Below, one piece after another: positions 16,333 through 27,706 of a stretch of DNA of 64,000 nt; positions within the stretch are counted from its first letter, which is position 1; each line of letters starts with the position of its first letter. The translations under genes and the position numbers were made by a program. Source of the stretch: Terrimonas ferruginea DSM 30193 (lineage in GTDB: Bacteria; Bacteroidota; Bacteroidia; Chitinophagales; Chitinophagaceae); contig NZ_AUDS01000014.1 of NCBI RefSeq assembly GCF_000425585.1, forward strand, positions 178,798 through 242,797, read 5' to 3'. The notes under the pieces are model-generated. The model ran no database searches. It was not told where the DNA came from and saw only the letters and a list, made by a program, of their open reading frames with translations.

Positions 16333-19300
16333 ATGAAAGGGATGTTGTATACATGTACCTCTTGGAAGCGGCTGTTTTTTATTCTCCTGGTGTGGACCCT
16401 GGCTACTCCTTTAGCCCGTGCACAAAACCCTATTGTGGTAGAAAATGCACTGACCGGTAATCCTCCTTCAGAATGGGATATCAACGGCGCAGGAGATTTG
16501 TCAATTCAGGGCTTCGCTACGGACATCAGTGTTAACCGTGGCGAACGTGTGCATTTTAAAATAAAAACGACTGCCCCCGCTTATACCATCGACATTTACC
16601 GCTTAGGTTATTATAATGGCAACGGCGCACGTAAAGTGGGCTCAGGCGTTGTCACCGCCACCTTACCCCAAACACAACCACCCGCATTTGAAGACGCCCT
16701 CACCGGTCTCGTTGATTGCGGCACCTGGGATGAATCCGGCTATTGGGATGTGCCTGCAACAGCGGTTTCCGGCATATATATCGCACGGCTGAAAAAGACC
16801 AGCGACGGTGGTGCCAGTCATATCATCTTCATCGTACGTGATGATGCCAGTACTTCCGATCTTTTTTTCCAGACTTCCGATGCCACCTGGCAGGCTTATA
16901 ATGCCTACGGCGGCAACAGCCTTTATGTAGGCAGCACTTCCTACCCCGCAGGCCATGCTACCAAAGTAAGTTATAACCGTCCCTTCCTCACACGCGATGG
17001 CGGCGGCGGCGGTGGTGCAGCCGAAGATTGGGTGTTCAACGCCGAATACCCGATGCTACGTTTCCTCGAAAAAAACGGGTTCAACGTAAGTTATACTACC
17101 AATATCGATGCGGCACGCCGCGGCAACCTGATACTTAATCATAAAGTATTTCTTTCCGTAGGACACGATGAATACTGGTCATCCGAACAACGTGCCAATG
17201 TAGAAGCAGCCCGCAATGCCGGCGTTCACCTGGCTTTCTTCAGTGGTAATGAGATCTACTGGAAAACACGCTGGGAAAACAGTGCCTACGGTACCAATAA
17301 TAGTTACCGTACACTGGTATGTTATAAAGAAGGCACTTTAGGTGAAACGGTTTGCGGCACCAAGTGTGATCCAACTCCGGCATGGACAGGTCTGTGGCGC
17401 AGTGGCTGCGAATATCCCGCGGGCGGTGCCTGTTTGCCGGAAAATTCCCTGAGCGGACAGATCAGTTGGGACGGCAGTACCTCCTCGATCAAAGTACCTG
17501 CCGCTTACCGCAATCTGCGTTTCTGGCGCAATACCAGCATTGTCAATCTCGGTTCCGAAGACGAAGCCACGCTTCCCTTCGGCACACTTGGTTACGAATG
17601 GAATTTTGAACAATATGCCGAAAGCAATCCGCGTGGCCGCATCACCATGTCGAGCACGGATTTCAACGGTAAAACACATAAACTTTCTCTTTACCGCCAT
17701 ACCAGCGGAGCACTGGTATTTGGCGCTGGTACCGTACAATGGGCCTGGGGTCTCGACGATAAACATGACAGAGGCAACCTGCCCGCCGATGTGCGCATGC
17801 AACAGGCCACTATCAACCTGCTGGCCGACATGGGTGTGCAACCAGCTACTCTTCAATCGGGCCTCGCGGCGGCTACCAAATCCACTGACAACACGGCTCC
17901 TGTTGCCGCTATTTCCACGCCCGGCACGGGAAGCTCTTATCAAAGCGGCAGCAGCGTCACTATTTCCGGCACAGCTACCGACATAGGCGGCGTAGTCGCC
18001 GGTGTGGAAATTTCAACAGACGGTGGCACCACCTGGCAGATCGCCAACGGCCGCACCAACTGGAATTATACCTGGTTTGCCAGCGTGCCCGGCAGCTTCG
18101 TGGTGAAAGTACGTGCCTTCGATGATTCAGGAAATATGCAGCCTGAAGGAACAGCACCTTCAACATCCGCTATCAATGTCACGATCACCAACCCGCAATG
18201 TCCCTGCAATATTTTTCCAAACAGTGCCATCCCTTATTCGGCCAACAACTACGATAATGAACCGGGTATTGAGATCGGCGTGAAGTTCCTGGCAAGCCAG
18301 GCAGGTTATATTACGGGTCTGCGTTTTTACAAAGGAGTAAATGATGTGGGCACACACACCGGCAGCCTATGGACTACCGATGGTGAACTGAAAGCCCGCG
18401 CCATTTTCGTAAATGAATCGGCTTCGGGATGGCAACAGGTACTGTTCAGCAGCCCGGTGGCGATACAGGCCAACCAAACGTATATTGCTTCTTATCATAG
18501 TCCAACAGGTTTCTATTCTTATACACCGACCTTCTTTCTGCAGCCTTATCCTTCGGGTTACCTGACCGCAGCGGGAGGTTCCGTCGCCAATGGGCTGTAT
18601 CAGTATACCTCCACTCCCACTTTCCCCGGCAACAGCTATCAGCAAAGCAATTACTGGGTAGATATTGTGTTTGATCTTACGGCTGGTCCGGATGTAACGC
18701 CGCCGGTTGTGTTATCGTCCACACCACCGGATCTTGCTTCATTGGTTCCGCTTGACGCTACCATCAAGGCAACTTTCAATGAAGCCATTCTTCCGGCTTC
18801 TGTAACCACGGGAACATTTGAATTGCGCGGCCCCGGCAACGCACTGATCAGCTCCACAGTGTCTACGGCACAAAGCCAGGTGACCTTAATACCTTCAGCA
18901 GCGCTGGCTTATGCCACTACCTATACCGCACGTATTTCCGGCGGTGTTACGGGCATAAAAGACCTGGCAGGCAACAACCTCGCGGCAGATTACACCTGGT
19001 CCTTCACCACGGCAGATCCGCCGCCGCCTCCGCCTACTGATGGCACCGGCGGACCAATACTGATCGTGAGCAATTCCACGAATCCGTTCAGCCGTTATGC
19101 CGTAGAAATTCTCCGTGCAGAAGGTATTACCAGTTTTGCCACAAAAGATATTTCCCAACTGAGCACAGCCGCTGATCTCAACGGATACGACGCGGTAGTA
19201 CTCGGGGAAATGACATTGAATGCGGCACAGGCGACCCTGCTTACCAACTGGGTAACCGCAGGCGGTACGCTCATTGCCTTCCGCCCGGGTGGCACGGCCC

Positions 19301-21264
19301 TCAGCTCACTGATGGGCATCACCAAACTGAGCGGCACGCTTTCCGACAAATATTTATTGGTCAATACAGCAACAGGTGCTGGCACAGGCATTACCAATCA
19401 AACATTGCAATTCCATGGCGCAGCAGATCTCTATTCGCTGAGCGGTGCTACGGCTGTTGCTACGCTATACGCCAATGCCAATACGGCTACTACTTATCCC
19501 GCTGTCACCACACGCAACGTGGGCGGCAACGGCGGCCGTGCTATTGCTTTTACCTACGATCTCGCCAAGTCAATTGTTTACACACGTCAGGGGAATCCTG
19601 CATGGGCAGGACAGGAACGCGATGGCCAGAGCGGCCCTATCCGCTCCAACGATTTATTTTTCGGCGGCACCGAAACTGACTGGATCGACTTAAGTAAAGT
19701 AGCGATTCCGCAGGCTGATGAGCAACAACGTTTGCTTACGAACCTCGTTATCAAAGGAGCGCTGCACCGCAAACCATTGCCACGCTTCTGGTTCCTGCCA
19801 AGAAATCTCAAAGCCGCTGTGGTAATGACGGGAGACGATCACACGTACAACGGAACACCGGGCCGCTTTACCCATTATCTCAGCCTCGGCCCCAACACAC
19901 CACAGGATGTACGTGACTGGAAAGCGATCAGGGCTACTTCGTATATCCTGAACAATACACCGATTACGAATGACCAGGCTGTTGCGTTCGAATCACAGGG
20001 CTTTGAAGTAGCATTGCACCTCAATACCAATTGCAGCAATTTCACTTCTGCCAGTTTCTCTTCCAATCTTACCACACAACTGGCACAGTTGGCCAATCAG
20101 TTACCCGGCATAAGTCCTCCCGTTACCAACCGCACACACTGTATTGCCTGGAGCGACTGGGCTTCTGCACCGAAGATCGAGGCGCAGAACAAGATCCGCC
20201 TCGATGTAAACTATTACTACTGGCCTGCCTCATGGGTACAAAACAGATCGGGTATGTTTACCGGTTCTGGTATGCCCATGCGTTTTGCCGACCTCGATGG
20301 CACACTCATCGACTGTTACCAGGTAGCCACACAAATGACCGATGAGTCGGGCATCGACTACAACACGTTCAGTGCACAATTATTTGACCGCGCACTGGGA
20401 ACAGAAGGATACTACGGTGTGTTCTGCGCCAACATGCATACCGACAGCGCCATGCATGCGGGATCAGAGGCGATCATTGCACAGGCACTGGCCCGCAACA
20501 TTCCGGTGATCTCTGCCAAACAATTGCTGACATGGCTGGATGGACGTAACAATTCTACCTACGATAATATTGCGTGGAATAATAACCAGCTTACGTTTAA
20601 CCTCAATGCCCGCACGGCCGCTTACAACCTGCGCGGTATGCTGCCGATGCTGGCAGACAATGGCCAGCAGCTGAGCCAGATCACGAGAAACGGCGGACTT
20701 ACCACCTTCACCACCGAAACAATTAAAGGAATTGCCTACGCATTCTTTGAAGCGCAGTCCGGCACCTATGTAGCGACTTACGGTCCTGTTACCACCGGTA
20801 CGATCCGCGGCTCCGTAACCTTACAGGCACGCCCCGCCGCACCACATGCAAGCTGGCAGGTACCACTGACCGTTAATCTGTATGCACCGGGCAACAATAC
20901 CACGCCGGTATTGACCTATACTACCACAACAGACAATAGCGGCAAGTTCTCTATCTCCGGTGTACCGGCAGGCACGTATAACATCGCTGTTAAAAACAGC
21001 CACACACTGCAACGCGTAAAAAGCAATCAGGCAATCGTGGCAGGCGATAACGCCATCGCATTCGGCACATTGTCCGAAGGCGATGTAAACAATGACAACT
21101 TCATCACGCTGATTGACCTGACCACGCTGCTGTCGGCTTATCTCAAGAGTAATGGTGATGCAGGTTATGTGGCAAACGCTGATCTCAACAATGACGGATA
21201 TATTTCCCTGCTCGATCTCACGACCTTATTGTCGAACTATCTGAGCCAGGGAGAAACACCATAA
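16333..21264 (+). CDS. Secreted multidomain protein with C-terminal dockerin
   Basis: 1643 aa, signal peptide to about residue 31. Order: an N,N-dimethylformamidase-beta-subunit-like domain (about 33-500; FLSVGHDEYWSSEQR, FFSGNEIYWKTRWE); an Ig-like domain (520-620); a DUF4082-like module (625-783); a Big_5-type Ig domain (787-893); a Pro-rich linker; a domain with GYDAVVLGEM and GGTLIAFRPGG (905-1140); a polysaccharide-deacetylase-like domain (1150-1400; GDDH at 1167-1170, H1229); a carboxypeptidase/SpaA-like domain (1488-1575); and a dockerin (1582-1640). The dockerin has two 12-residue calcium loops, D1584/N1586/D1588/D1595 and D1617/N1619/D1621/D1628, each followed by LTTLLS-YL. It has no T9SS sorting domain. 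Catalytic activity is unknown. The gene 56 bp downstream encodes the likely cohesin partner. Confidence 0.8.
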   Translation: MKGMLYTCTSWKRLFFILLVWTLATPLARAQNPIVVENALTGNPPSEWDINGAGDLSIQGFATDISVNRGERVHFKIKTTAPAYTIDIYRLGYYNGNGARKVGSGVVTATLPQTQPPAFEDALTGLVDCGTWDESGYWDVPATAVSGIYIARLKKTSDGGASHIIFIVRDDASTSDLFFQTSDATWQAYNAYGGNSLYVGSTSYPAGHATKVSYNRPFLTRDGGGGGGAAEDWVFNAEYPMLRFLEKNGFNVSYTTNIDAARRGNLILNHKVFLSVGHDEYWSSEQRANVEAARNAGVHLAFFSGNEIYWKTRWENSAYGTNNSYRTLVCYKEGTLGETVCGTKCDPTPAWTGLWRSGCEYPAGGACLPENSLSGQISWDGSTSSIKVPAAYRNLRFWRNTSIVNLGSEDEATLPFGTLGYEWNFEQYAESNPRGRITMSSTDFNGKTHKLSLYRHTSGALVFGAGTVQWAWGLDDKHDRGNLPADVRMQQATINLLADMGVQPATLQSGLAAATKSTDNTAPVAAISTPGTGSSYQSGSSVTISGTATDIGGVVAGVEISTDGGTTWQIANGRTNWNYTWFASVPGSFVVKVRAFDDSGNMQPEGTAPSTSAINVTITNPQCPCNIFPNSAIPYSANNYDNEPGIEIGVKFLASQAGYITGLRFYKGVNDVGTHTGSLWTTDGELKARAIFVNESASGWQQVLFSSPVAIQANQTYIASYHSPTGFYSYTPTFFLQPYPSGYLTAAGGSVANGLYQYTSTPTFPGNSYQQSNYWVDIVFDLTAGPDVTPPVVLSSTPPDLASLVPLDATIKATFNEAILPASVTTGTFELRGPGNALISSTVSTAQSQVTLIPSAALAYATTYTARISGGVTGIKDLAGNNLAADYTWSFTTADPPPPPPTDGTGGPILIVSNSTNPFSRYAVEILRAEGITSFATKDISQLSTAADLNGYDAVVLGEMTLNAAQATLLTNWVTAGGTLIAFRPGGTALSSLMGITKLSGTLSDKYLLVNTATGAGTGITNQTLQFHGAADLYSLSGATAVATLYANANTATTYPAVTTRNVGGNGGRAIAFTYDLAKSIVYTRQGNPAWAGQERDGQSGPIRSNDLFFGGTETDWIDLSKVAIPQADEQQRLLTNLVIKGALHRKPLPRFWFLPRNLKAAVVMTGDDHTYNGTPGRFTHYLSLGPNTPQDVRDWKAIRATSYILNNTPITNDQAVAFESQGFEVALHLNTNCSNFTSASFSSNLTTQLAQLANQLPGISPPVTNRTHCIAWSDWASAPKIEAQNKIRLDVNYYYWPASWVQNRSGMFTGSGMPMRFADLDGTLIDCYQVATQMTDESGIDYNTFSAQLFDRALGTEGYYGVFCANMHTDSAMHAGSEAIIAQALARNIPVISAKQLLTWLDGRNNSTYDNIAWNNNQLTFNLNARTAAYNLRGMLPMLADNGQQLSQITRNGGLTTFTTETIKGIAYAFFEAQSGTYVATYGPVTTGTIRGSVTLQARPAAPHASWQVPLTVNLYAPGNNTTPVLTYTTTTDNSGKFSISGVPAGTYNIAVKNSHTLQRVKSNQAIVAGDNAIAFGTLSEGDVNNDNFITLIDLTTLLSAYLKSNGDAGYVANADLNNDGYISLLDLTTLLSNYLSQGETP

Positions 21265-21320
21265 ACGCTGTTAAAAGACAACCATTAAACTGTAACAATT
21301 AATCGTTATTACCATTTAAA

Positions 21321-23210
21321 ATGATTTGTATGAACCCGAATACTACACTCCCCCGTATTTTCAGCCGTTCAGTGCTGATGCTGTTGCTGGTATTCATTAG
21401 CCGCAGTATGCTGGCACAAAACGTGAACATTATCGTATCGCCTGCCACTACTTCCACACAGGTAGGCCAGACGTTTACCGTTTCCGTAGTAGCCGATTTT
21501 ACCGGCACCGCTACACTCAATGGTATCGATGCATTCCTGAATTTCAATCCTGCGGATTTGCAGGTAGTAGGCACACCTACGGTGCCTGCTGGTACGCAAG
21601 CCATGCTGGAAGGCGTGTCAGTTCCGTTTACTTCGGTAGCTAACATGAACAGCCTCGGTCGGGTGGATCATGGTCGTTTTACGACTAACGGCAACATCGC
21701 TGCCCACCCCAGCAGCGACTTCACGCTGTTCTCCGTAACGTTCCAGGCTTTGCGAGTACCACCGGGAGGCAATACCGCGCTTTCGTTCAATACAGCATTG
21801 CCGCGTCAGACCAACGCTGCTGAAGGCGCCACCGTTGTGCTGAACCAGACCATCAATGGCACGGTGACCATCACCTCCAATTGTACACCTCCTACTGCTA
21901 CGATCAGCAATACCACCAGTTGTAATGGTCAGCCCTTTTCGCTGACATTGGCCAATGCTACCGGTACAGGTCCTTATGACCTTACGGTAAACGGCAATCT
22001 CTACAGCAATGTAGCTGTTGGCGGTTCATTCGGTCTTTTTACACCGCCGGTTGAAAAGGTTTACACTACCAACCCTGTTACCAGTTCCTATGGTCCGGAC
22101 ACCGACCCTCCCAGTGCCGGTGCGCCTGCAGTTGAGCTGGGTGTAAAATTCCGCACCAGTGTAACGGGTTTTGTAAAAGGCGTTCGTTTCTATGCACCGG
22201 ACATGGTTTCGGGTACGTATACCGGCAACCTCTGGAGCGCTTCGGGTGTACTGCTGGCCTCCGCTGTTTTCAGCAATGTAAGCCCCAACGGATGGCAGGA
22301 AGTCACCTTCACCACACCTATCCAGATTCCGGCGAATACCACTTATATCGTCTCTTATCACAGCACCTACGGCCGCTATCGTGCAACCGTAGGCGGTTAT
22401 AACAGTGCTGGTGCATCGAATGGTTCTATCACGATCCTGCGCAATGGTGTGGACGGCGGTAATGGTTTGTTTAAATATGGCCCGACCGGTTTTCCCAATC
22501 AATCTGTAAATGCCACTAACTATTGGGTGGATGTATTGTTTTCACCTGCTGTATACTCTTTCAACCTCACCAGTGTAGCGAGTGCCGACGGATGTACCAA
22601 CACCGGTTCGCTGCAAACGCTGGTGGTTACATCCGTTGAATGCGGAACACTGCCTGTACGTTTTGTTTCACTGGCCGCTGCTGCACAGGAGCCGGACCGT
22701 ATCGTACTCAACTGGAGCACTGCTGAAGAACTGAATAACCGTGGCTTCCAGGTTGAGCGTTCAACGGATGGTGTGAACTGGACCGCCATTGGTTTTGTAC
22801 CAAGCGATACACGAAGCCAGGACATCCGCCGCTATACCTATACGGATGAGCGCCTCGCTCCTGCACGTTACTATTATCGCGTGAAGCAGATCGACTTCGA
22901 TAACAACTATCGTTATTCCATTGTGGTATCTGCCACACTGGGCAGTGCCGCCCGTTATATCCTTGAGCAGAACGTTCCCAATCCTGCAAATGGCCAGACG
23001 GCCATCCGTTATACACTGGCAGAAGGTGGCCAGGTGATGCTGACCCTGCTGGATGCCAGCGGCCGCCAGGTAAAGGTATTGGCCAGCGCCCGCCGCGAGG
23101 CCGGCAGCTATGTGGAGTATTTTGAGCCCGCAGGTTTGGCGAAAGGTGTTTATTTCTATAAATTAGTAGTGAATGGATTTTCTGCTGTAAAAAAGATGTT
23201 CATTCAATAG
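21321..23210 (+). CDS. T9SS-anchored protein with N-terminal cohesin-like domain
   Basis: 629 aa; signal peptide to about residue 33. The cohesin-like domain (about 34-185) shows the usual layout: IIVSPATTSTQVGQTFTVSV, then a TLNGIDAFLNFNPADLQVV strand pair, and FTLFSVTFQAL near the end. A DUF4082-like module follows (about 245-408), resembling the one in the preceding protein (LGVKFRTSVTGFVKGVRFY; GNLWSASGVLL). Then comes a fibronectin-like segment (445-540) and a T9SS type-A sorting domain (545-629; NVPNPANGQTAIRY, LAKGVYFYKLVV). The start could be 21321 or 21330. Likely exported by T9SS and attached to the surface, where its cohesin could hold the dockerin protein. Confidence 0.78.
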   Translation: MICMNPNTTLPRIFSRSVLMLLLVFISRSMLAQNVNIIVSPATTSTQVGQTFTVSVVADFTGTATLNGIDAFLNFNPADLQVVGTPTVPAGTQAMLEGVSVPFTSVANMNSLGRVDHGRFTTNGNIAAHPSSDFTLFSVTFQALRVPPGGNTALSFNTALPRQTNAAEGATVVLNQTINGTVTITSNCTPPTATISNTTSCNGQPFSLTLANATGTGPYDLTVNGNLYSNVAVGGSFGLFTPPVEKVYTTNPVTSSYGPDTDPPSAGAPAVELGVKFRTSVTGFVKGVRFYAPDMVSGTYTGNLWSASGVLLASAVFSNVSPNGWQEVTFTTPIQIPANTTYIVSYHSTYGRYRATVGGYNSAGASNGSITILRNGVDGGNGLFKYGPTGFPNQSVNATNYWVDVLFSPAVYSFNLTSVASADGCTNTGSLQTLVVTSVECGTLPVRFVSLAAAAQEPDRIVLNWSTAEELNNRGFQVERSTDGVNWTAIGFVPSDTRSQDIRRYTYTDERLAPARYYYRVKQIDFDNNYRYSIVVSATLGSAARYILEQNVPNPANGQTAIRYTLAEGGQVMLTLLDASGRQVKVLASARREAGSYVEYFEPAGLAKGVYFYKLVVNGFSAVKKMFIQ

Positions 23211-23238: not shown

Positions 23239-23280
23239 AAAGCGAGACGTCTCCACCCTGCGGAGGCGTTTCGCTTTTTT
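23239..23280 (+). terminator. Rho-independent terminator of the dockerin-cohesin operon
   Basis: Arms AAAGCGAGACG and CGTTTCGCTTT with an inner CTCC/GGAG pair and a loop, followed by a T run. It ends just before the promoter of the next gene. Confidence 0.75.
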
Positions 23281-25170: not shown

Positions 25171-25294
25171 AGTCAAAATTCAAAAGTAAAAAGTCAAAAA
25201 ATGACCGTGCGATATGTATGCTTTCTTCGTCTTGCGCGAAATGACTATTAATCACAATACACTTTTGAATTTTTACTTTTGACTTTTGAATTTA
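25171..25294. repeat. Inverted pair of TTTTGACTTTTGAA word tracts
   Basis: AGTCAAAATTCAAAAGT words (25171-25200) and the complementary ACTTTTGAATTTTTACTTTT words (25261-25294) flank about 60 bp of unique sequence. The right tract supplies the TAA stop of the amylase gene (complement at 25292-25294). Confidence 0.75.
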
Positions 25295-27706
25295 CCTCAC
25301 AACGGTTATCTTCTTCGTCTGTGTTCCGTTCGCCGTTACCAGCTTCACCACATACACACCGGGAGTAAGATGCGCGGCTTTAAGCGACATCCGGTGCTGT
25401 CCTGCGGGCAATACCTGGCTGGCCAGCCTGCTCACCTCATGTCCCTGCGCACTATAAATGCGTATGTCAACATTCCCCTTCTGTGCGATGCTGAAGGTCA
25501 GCACAGATTGCGCCGATACGGGATCGGGATATACCTGCAATCCTTCATCGGCGGCTTCGGTGATCCAGCCGCCATTATCCGGCTCGATCATATCCGGATG
25601 CGATGAACGCGCAGGATAAGAAGAGGTAGCCGGGATTTTGGGTGATGTGTACGTTGCTTTTACAAATACTTTCTGTGATGGATTGGAGGCACTGGTATTC
25701 TTCACCCGTATCTGGTAAAAACCAGTAGAAGATGGCGTATAAGTCAGCGTGAGATTCCCCAGGCCATTTACTGTTTGCAGCAGCGTGCCTGCATTGTTGT
25801 AAAGGTTCAGCGTAATGTCTTTTGTATTGTTGGTTGGATAAAGATTCACAGTAATGGTCTTTCCGTTTTCACTGAATATTTTTCCCACGTTGCGCAATGC
25901 GGTGGATGTGGCGGGAAGGGCGCCGCCCTGCTGCAAGGAACTTGCATGCGAATCGCCGAGATCATCCGCCATTTCCCATTCCTGCGTGGTGGTTCTTTGC
26001 GTTGGGTTGAAGCCGCCTGTAATACCTGCCGGTCCCCAGATGCAATAACCACGGCGTATGTTGCTGCCATCGCAGGGTGGAATCCAGATGGTCGCCTTGC
26101 CGGTTGCATCGGTCCAGATATCGGATGCATTGGCACCTGAATAGTCATGCAGTTGTTTATTGGCACCAAAATCAGTTTGTATTGTTGCGGACTGCCAGGT
26201 ATTCCAGTTATCGTTCACGCCAATGATTGCGTAACTGTTTTCAGGCCCCACATTGTAACCGCGTTCGATGATCAGCAAATCATTTCCGGAGGCTCTCACC
26301 TTGTAAGAACCTTTTTTAAAGTTCAGTTTCTGATGACACCAGATGATATTGGCGATGTCGTCTCTTACCGGCAGATCCGTTGTATTGGTTGGCAAATGCG
26401 AATAACGTTTGCTGAGCCCGCCTACATTAAACAGGTCTTCAAAGAACACCTGGGGCGAACCGTCTACGGCAAAGGCGATGGCATAAGCAACGGCGAGCCT
26501 TACATCAAAAGGATCGATGTGTCCGCCGCCCAATTCATTGCCGGTGTCCCAACCTGTGTAGTTACCATTGGCGTCTTTGATCGGACGGAACGTATCATGG
26601 TTGTTGACAAACGGAACCGTACGGTAACGGTTGCCTTGTTGTGAACCGGGAATGTTGGCGAGGTTGTAACCGCCGCCGCCGCTGGTCATGTTTTTCAATT
26701 CCTGGCGCAGGCTGAAATCGAAGGTACCAACGAGGTCTTCCGAACCGCCATTGCTGTAACGCACATCATTGATCCATGTATCGAGTTGTGCGCTGCTGCC
26801 CACATACTCCCCTACCGCAAACATCTGCGCGCCACCGTTGGCCCAGCCGGCATTGTATTTCACATTCCAGATAAAATCCTGCATGGCCCAATGCGGGAAA
26901 TGTTTGACGGCATCGAAACGGAAACCGTCCACGCCTGTCTGTTTTTTCATCCAGATGATCCAGTCGCGGGCATTGTTGCGCATGTAATCGCTGGTCTGTG
27001 TGGGATTGAAAGTGGCGTTGGAACTTTGTCCGTAAGCGCCGGAATAATAACATACATCCGGACCGAAAAAAGGCGAGCACCAGTCGCCGCTTGTACATAC
27101 GTGTCCCGGATTGCCATGGAAATTCTGCCAGTTCTTGGGCCATCTCCCGGAGCGGGCCATGTAGTTGGCAGCCGTTTCCGAAGAAGCGGGCGTTACATAA
27201 CTGACGTTGCGGAAATTCTTGTAGCTGTTACCATCGCCGTTGGCATACATGGGGTCGGAGCCACCAAGGCCGGTGGAAGAACCCGCATTGTCGAGATGAT
27301 TAAATACCACGTCCTGGATCACGTCCATGCCATTGGCATGTGCCACACCAACGAGACGCAGGAATTCATTCTTGTTGCCAAATCTTGTTTTGACATTTCC
27401 TTTCTGGTACTTGTCGCCAAGATCATACTGATCGAAGGGAGAATAGCCGTTACTGTTGGTACCGGCGTTTTTGATGGTGGGCGGGATCCAGAGACCATCG
27501 ATGCCGAGGTCGCGGAGGCGGGGCGACAGATCGGCGAGGTAGTTGGCCCAGCCATCGGGATAATTGGTGTTCCAGTAATCCCACCAGAATCCTTGCAGGA
27601 CCACTTTACCATTCCAGGGATTTTGTGCTGCCGGCACGAAGAATAAGTGGGCCGACAGGAATAGCAGCACCAGCTGCAGACGAAACTGTAGTAACATTCT
27701 TTTCAT
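25292..27706 (-). CDS. Secreted alpha-amylase (GH13) with T9SS sorting domain
   Basis: 804-aa secreted glycoside hydrolase, signal peptide to about 27. The (beta/alpha)8 barrel (about 30-480) shows the GH13 regions DVVFNH (D132-H137), GFRFDAVKH (nucleophile D265), VGEYV (acid/base E300) and FVNNHD (D371). A beta-rich C domain follows, then a PPC-like segment (about 620-690; TYTPSSTGFYQIRV), and a T9SS type-A sorting domain (about 725-804; VYPDPVSAQ, LTPGVYVVKLV). It likely degrades starch-like glucans at the cell surface. No SusC/D pair is next to it. Confidence 0.92.
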   Translation of the reverse strand: MKRMLLQFRLQLVLLFLSAHLFFVPAAQNPWNGKVVLQGFWWDYWNTNYPDGWANYLADLSPRLRDLGIDGLWIPPTIKNAGTNSNGYSPFDQYDLGDKYQKGNVKTRFGNKNEFLRLVGVAHANGMDVIQDVVFNHLDNAGSSTGLGGSDPMYANGDGNSYKNFRNVSYVTPASSETAANYMARSGRWPKNWQNFHGNPGHVCTSGDWCSPFFGPDVCYYSGAYGQSSNATFNPTQTSDYMRNNARDWIIWMKKQTGVDGFRFDAVKHFPHWAMQDFIWNVKYNAGWANGGAQMFAVGEYVGSSAQLDTWINDVRYSNGGSEDLVGTFDFSLRQELKNMTSGGGGYNLANIPGSQQGNRYRTVPFVNNHDTFRPIKDANGNYTGWDTGNELGGGHIDPFDVRLAVAYAIAFAVDGSPQVFFEDLFNVGGLSKRYSHLPTNTTDLPVRDDIANIIWCHQKLNFKKGSYKVRASGNDLLIIERGYNVGPENSYAIIGVNDNWNTWQSATIQTDFGANKQLHDYSGANASDIWTDATGKATIWIPPCDGSNIRRGYCIWGPAGITGGFNPTQRTTTQEWEMADDLGDSHASSLQQGGALPATSTALRNVGKIFSENGKTITVNLYPTNNTKDITLNLYNNAGTLLQTVNGLGNLTLTYTPSSTGFYQIRVKNTSASNPSQKVFVKATYTSPKIPATSSYPARSSHPDMIEPDNGGWITEAADEGLQVYPDPVSAQSVLTFSIAQKGNVDIRIYSAQGHEVSRLASQVLPAGQHRMSLKAAHLTPGVYVVKLVTANGTQTKKITVVR

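Follow-up and report, generated by a model that had tools for sequence, protein, structure and literature searches.

A dockerin protein and its neighbouring cohesin anchor in Terrimonas ferruginea form a predicted pair for surface display through a type IX secretion tag

We analysed a 64,000-nt stretch of the genome of Terrimonas ferruginea DSM 30193 (GCF_000425585.1, contig NZ_AUDS01000014.1; hereafter the window, whose numbering is used throughout), in which two adjacent genes encode a dockerin protein, P1, and a predicted cohesin protein, P2, that carries a sorting domain of the type IX secretion system (T9SS). P1 (16333..21264, 1643 aa) and P2 (21321..23210, 629 aa) both lie on the plus strand, as do all of their features given below, and are separated by 56 bp (21265..21320); the coordinates, lengths and gap given in an original prediction made from this DNA were all correct. 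From its N terminus, P1 comprises a putative Sec signal peptide recognized by eye (residues 1-31, ending in ARAQ; 16333..16425), a DMFA2_C domain (residues 85-478, 16585..17766; Pfam E value 1.2e-94), Big_7, DUF4082 (residues 640-776, 18250..18660; E value 3.9e-45), the immunoglobulin (Ig)-like domain Big_5 (residues 787-893, 18691..19011; E value 1.7e-24), a weak ThuA-like stretch, an uncharacterised part, a CarboxypepD_reg-like X-module (residues ~1495-1580, 20815..21072; the match is below its Pfam cut-off) and a dockerin (residues 1583-1637, 21079..21243). P2 is made up of a predicted cohesin (residues 33-189, 21417..21887), DUF4082 (residues 267-403, 22119..22529; E value 1.3e-41) and a T9SS type-A sorting domain (residues 553-629, 22977..23207).

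The dockerin of P1 scored 31.5 bits with Pfam Dockerin_1 (PF00404; cut-off 22.9) and has the two calcium-loop-helix repeats of a type I dockerin (residues 1584-1605, 21082..21147, and 1617-1638, 21181..21246). The two predicted calcium loops, D1584/N1586/D1588/D1595 and D1617/N1619/D1621/D1628, were confirmed; D1584, D1595, D1617 and D1628 are invariant across 30 aligned sequences, the window's own included, and N1619 and D1621 are nearly so. Calcium binding by this dockerin is, we predict, probable. A feature missed by the original prediction is the X-module, which stands immediately N-terminal to the dockerin in a joint fold like that of the type II X-module–dockerin dyad. Indeed, a profile search of the PDB with the X-module–dockerin block found 2b59_B (E value 3.4e-15), and a PDB sequence search with P1 returned X-dockerins, one dockerin and one marginal other match. 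Among the closest known systems is this type II dyad, found in C. thermocellum CipA and A. cellulolyticus ScaA together with surface-anchoring cohesins (2b59, 3kcp, 4wi0, 5g5d).

In agreement with the earlier claim, no T9SS sorting domain was listed for P1 by Pfam or NCBIfam at E values up to 1, a range in which the HMMER filters discard most matches above ~0.1, and a cryptic sorting domain was rejected on this result. The same scans revealed no other export signal in P1. Pfam listed no glycoside hydrolase domain either, and P1 was rejected as a recognisable glycoside hydrolase.

For the N-terminal domain of P2, which had been described as cohesin-like, the AlphaFold2 model (predicted local distance difference test score 93.4) has the cohesin beta-sandwich fold, and its best PDB matches are cohesin or scaffoldin entries. 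A profile built from 13 sequences matched 1g1k at an E value of 9e-6, a sign of kinship to known cohesins, and the related anchor L209 exceeds the Pfam cohesin cut-off (30.0 versus 24.1 bits). The predicted fold and the relatives thus settle the identity of the domain despite the sub-threshold Pfam score of P2 itself. The sorting domain at the other end of P2 was also as described, being over the cut-off in both NCBIfam (TIGR04183, 33.2 bits; cut-off 23) and Pfam (PF18962 Por_Secre_tail, 28.1 bits; cut-off 27). SprA, the component of the T9SS translocon that we examined, is encoded in the same genome (TIGR04189, 2433 bits). Judged by its domains, P2 is T9SS cargo, and it matches ordinary cargo with the sorting domain in cis (PF18962/TIGR04183); unlike such cargo, P1 has no sorting domain and would borrow that of P2. 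The claim that a single terminator follows both genes stood in part: a terminator-like hairpin with a T-run lies at 23260..23278 on the plus strand and no such site lies in the gap, but terminator-like sites occur at close to the rate seen in shuffles (10 against an expected 9.2), so this evidence is weak. The promoter and terminator scans both gave results at shuffle level.

Domains, predicted folds and adjacency, together with the exclusivity, repeat coupling and class matching described below, make it likely that P1, with its X-module and dockerin and without a recognisable sorting domain, binds P2, with its predicted cohesin and type-A tag, and that P2 fixes P1 to the cell surface, in the manner of a much reduced cellulosome. 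Following established T9SS behaviour, the sorting domain of P2 would direct its export through SprA, and P2 would then be attached to the surface. Docking would tie P1 to P2, either in the periplasm, P1 leaving as P2's passenger, or outside the cell. The minimal surface assembly put forward earlier, a T9SS-tagged anchor with docked cargo, holds as far as the predicted cohesin fold, the dockerin, the tag and the adjacency go, but 'docked cargo' does not itself say how P1 would cross the outer membrane.

The pair is kept together in relatives, as had been expected of a functional unit. Among 396 genomes of the order Chitinophagales, the X-module–dockerin block (E value up to 1e-8) was present in 12 and the cohesin (E value up to 1e-6) in 12; 11 genomes had both, and every one of these had at least one neighbouring block–cohesin pair. 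Within the family Chitinophagaceae (394 genomes) the block was present in nine, and in all nine, the genomes in which the cohesin was looked for, a cohesin gene came next on the same strand. The gap was 31 to 58 nt in seven of the nine, and the longest reading of the anchor frame gives an overlap in the other two; a sorting domain was found on seven of the nine anchors, and one anchor runs off its contig. Locus L057 (Chitinophagaceae MAG-378, a metagenome-assembled genome) and that of genome G529 have equal gene sizes and were treated as one locus, counted once. Chance adjacency of the two genes was rejected by this co-occurrence and kept gene order. The anchors vary in size: the smallest (L209:2781-3920, 380 aa) is essentially a cohesin and a T9SS sorting domain, and a homologue of 558 aa (L211:5167-6840) stops where the sorting domain would begin. 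Proteins P0003-P0007 are anchor relatives of ~1050 aa; an alignment of P0003-P0006 shows, by eye, two cohesin–DUF4082 units and one sorting domain, so one anchor could hold two cargoes.

Among the best 120 of 2694 relatives of P1, sorted by resemblance to a region containing the dockerin, local profiles found a dockerin without a sorting domain in 55, a sorting domain without a dockerin in 50, neither in 15 and both in none (Fisher p 1.1e-20, kinship ignored). The count of 55 is biased by the choice of ranking region, which does not explain the empty class with both. By domain content, it looks as if the dockerin had taken over the job of the sorting tag. At L095, a relative of the P1 body from the metagenome-assembled genome that holds L057, both frames beneath the match end in a sorting domain. 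Because the body carries sorting domains in these relatives, that of P1 likely works outside the cell.

P1 may leave the cell by another route (lysis, vesicles or an unrecognised signal) and dock on P2 outside, P2 acting solely as an anchor. We regard this as a real possibility, somewhat short of an even chance: clostridial enzymes dock on their scaffold from outside the cell, which is how clostridial cellulosomes assemble, and a large complex need not pass SprA, but Pfam and NCBIfam show no other export signal in P1 and the best 120 relatives never combine dockerin and tag. The T9SS signal could also be lent in trans, periplasmic docking letting an untagged protein, or a chain of giant proteins of the kind described below, exit through SprA; this idea is tentative and on balance doubtful, and, were it true, gene order would be assembly order. 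That P1 remains periplasmic or sits at the inner leaflet, the pair working there or only during export, we consider improbable. The periplasm is indeed the default for a protein with a Sec signal peptide (here recognised by eye) and no sorting domain, but the sorting domains on 50 of the 120 relatives and on both L095 frames argue against it.

We compared the two 22-residue repeats within one dockerin and between dockerins. After exclusion of near-duplicates and of 19 dockerins, out of 78, in which the pattern did not give exactly two repeats, 42 remained, 36 of them from the family of P1. In these 36, repeat identity within proteins exceeded that between proteins at positions 9 (75 versus 24%), 10 (94 versus 35%), 11 (81 versus 15%), 13 (92 versus 41%), 14 (97 versus 49%), 17 (86 versus 44%), 18 (61 versus 23%), 20 (94 versus 45%) and 21 (89 versus 59%). 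Known dockerins recognise cohesins at about positions 10-12, a numbering that may be off by one (PMC5301203). Coupling was not significant at positions 2, 4, 5, 6, 8, 19 and 22, and positions 1 and 12 are invariable. Recognition in known dockerins also involves positions 17, 18 and 22, the last being uncoupled here. These alignments are most simply read as the result of selection that keeps the two faces equivalent and specific to the partner, as in dockerins with a dual binding mode, and the P1 dockerin would offer two nearly equivalent faces to the P2 cohesin. The partners also vary together: over 13 pairs (nine from family genomes and four of listed proteins, the latter joined indirectly), cohesin distances correlated with dockerin distances at 0.86 and with those of the P1 body at 0.38.

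In a second family of the order, the same modules are found in longer arrays. Each of four genomes (G100, G215, G299 and G315) contains three consecutive giant genes, whose products have, respectively, a C-terminal dockerin, a cohesin and then a C-terminal dockerin, and a cohesin and then a sorting domain (the last gene of G215 reads as separate frames, and the first gene of G299 exceeds the fetched stretch). The array of G156 has one protein ending in a dockerin, one with four cohesins and a dockerin, and one with two cohesins and a sorting domain. Two-gene arrays are present in G323 and G369, the last gene having a sorting domain, and in G333, where the last gene is cut at the contig end. 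In such chains the dockerin at the C terminus of one protein would bind the cohesin encoded by the following gene, and only the last protein has a sorting domain. Kelch, malectin, CBM6 and Ig-like domains in the scanned chain proteins suggest that they bind carbohydrate.

The modules of these arrays fall into matched classes. The first-gene dockerins of G100, G215, G299 and G315 form one class (83-93% identity), and the cohesins that follow these dockerins form another (61-94%). The dockerin of G323 is 63-69% identical to the first-gene class versus 41-47% to second-gene dockerins, and its anchor cohesin is 51-58% identical to the class following first-gene dockerins versus 27-34% to the third-gene class; therefore, the G323 anchor, the middle gene being absent, bears a socket of the class suited to the first gene. 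In the five three-gene arrays, the cohesin after each second-gene dockerin belongs to the third-gene class, to which the first of the two G156 anchor cohesins is 51-62% identical. The first-gene dockerin and four middle cohesins of G156 were matched to neither class. The middle protein of G156 (L180:9432-17693, 2754 aa), a scaffoldin-like middle link, combines four cohesins and numerous Ig-like domains with a dockerin at its C terminus. Four proteins of G156 and G077 have a dockerin together with a sorting domain. One of them (L181:3766-12690) carries a dockerin, a cohesin that a local profile scores at 37 bits and Pfam does not list, and a T9SS sorting domain in tandem, a fused form in operon order; in the others the intervening stretch has a weak cohesin score or none, or the cohesins are elsewhere.

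These results also bear on whether the dockerin is a stabilising calcium module, the cohesin an unrelated Ig-like domain and the genes simply co-transcribed. Dockerin-like loops do occur in many non-cellulosomal proteins, and the Pfam cohesin match of P2 is weak, but the fold matches, co-occurrence, repeat coupling and class matching, and the natural fusion at L181 with its cohesin seen by local profile and not by Pfam, leave this explanation very little credence. A true cellulosome, in which P1 would join numerous other dockerin-bearing enzymes on a scaffold with several cohesins, is scarcely credible even with the four-cohesin protein of G156 in view, and such membership was rejected because T. 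ferruginea has one clear dockerin, one clear cohesin and no several-enzyme scaffoldin, and P1 no glycoside hydrolase domain in Pfam to make it such cargo. Profiles built on the P1/P2 system found one dockerin block and one cohesin in this genome. Pfam found one strong dockerin place (39.4 bits) and 11 weak ones, of which one just reaches the cut-off once neighbours are summed, and three cohesin matches, all under the cut-off; none of these weaker places was strong with the system profiles.

Several observations weigh against P2 being the dedicated surface anchor of P1. The match of P2 itself to the Pfam cohesin family (PF00963) is under the cut-off (17.4 versus 24.1 bits). The system is uncommon and scattered: of the 59 genomes searched, only that of T. 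ferruginea contains full-length P1, which is absent from the one further genome of the genus; among the 396 order genomes, one has the block without the cohesin and another the cohesin without the block. The dockerin gene L183 of G077 has no listed cohesin neighbour, and no sorting domain was found in anchor L211. Some proteins outside P1's family have a dockerin plus their own sorting domain, so the replacement of one by the other is not universal. Repeat coupling extends to position 7 (36 versus 16%) and, weakly, to positions 3, 15 and 16. When the P1 body was removed in partial correlations over the 12 pairs for which the two repeats could be read, the nine most coupled dockerin positions, chosen from largely the same data as tested, tracked the cohesin at 0.66 (p 0.0002), but the remaining positions did so too (0.54, p 0.001); with one near-duplicate pair removed, the values were 0.59 (p 0.0004) and 0.50 (p 0.011). 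The co-variation is thus only partly specific to the interface. The second anchor cohesin of G156 is outside the matched class. Because the six genomes compared are of one genus, shared ancestry may explain part of the class match, and that of G323 may reflect ancestry within the genus and not an independent event.

What is new is a division of labour within a known interaction. The original prediction took a T9SS-coupled form to be a different solution from the clostridial one; this is qualified by a predicted precedent in Candidatus Stygibacter (Cloacimonadota). For that organism, PMC8542988 predicts a scaffoldin that bears cohesins and would be attached to the surface by a conserved C-terminal domain, for which it cites a T9SS review. 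As with P1 and P2, the cohesin protein is predicted to be held at the surface via a C-terminal domain and the enzymes have C-terminal dockerins; unlike P1 and P2, there is one 3755-aa scaffoldin with tandem cohesins and carbohydrate-binding modules, serving several enzymes, in another phylum, and section 7 of that paper describes neither a dedicated neighbouring pair nor a chain. The planctosome of Nemodlikiaceae, as named in PMC8542988, resembles P1/P2 as a non-canonical cellulosome-like structure outside Clostridia but belongs to Planctomycetes, with polypeptide degradation reported. T9SS transports folded as well as very large proteins, and piggyback transport is known in other systems (PMC9251779); no T9SS passenger (co-secretion) case was found in the literature searched, as far as its accessible portions go. 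Dockerins are reported in some Bacteroidales single-cell genomes (PMC10266427), and the excerpts of open-licence literature searched described no T9SS-linked cohesin–dockerin pair or chain of genes from Bacteroidota. In this phylum, cohesin–dockerin docking would serve to display proteins at the surface by way of one-to-one gene pairs; in relatives, it is predicted to link several giant proteins in series, with a single T9SS tag on the terminal one. The pair makes testable whether T9SS exports a folded protein while it is attached to a partner with the sorting tag, and the diverse class-matched pairs may serve as orthogonal docking pairs.

Other parts and relatives of the two proteins gave further observations. 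Residues ~1150-1490 of P1 (19780-20802), for which Pfam listed no family, are well conserved, with D1168, D1169, H1170, H1229 and H1369 invariant; by eye they resemble a metal-dependent deacetylase, as a candidate only. A search of genome contigs, dominated by matches to the P1 body, gave 79 loci, and a scan of their plus-strand frames of at least 300 aa with local profiles found a dockerin or cohesin only at L057. The body is widespread, the remaining loci (L058-L135) including Actinomycetota, Acidobacteriota, Chloroflexota and Proteobacteria, and no dockerin was found in those frames of L058-L135. The X-module–dockerin block, in a sample of 296 genomes of the phylum, was present in three, namely that of T. 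ferruginea and two of the same order. A search with whole P2 matched mostly residues beyond ~400, and a dockerin-only search gave four proteins. Proteins P0079, P0086, P0091 and P0112 (~1080 aa) each combine an internal dockerin with a sorting domain in cis, with DUF4082 between the two in P0079; no cohesin was detected in these four. Near the pair, on the minus strand (25292-27706), lies a gene for an ordinary T9SS cargo, a protein that has both an alpha-amylase domain and, in cis, a sorting domain.

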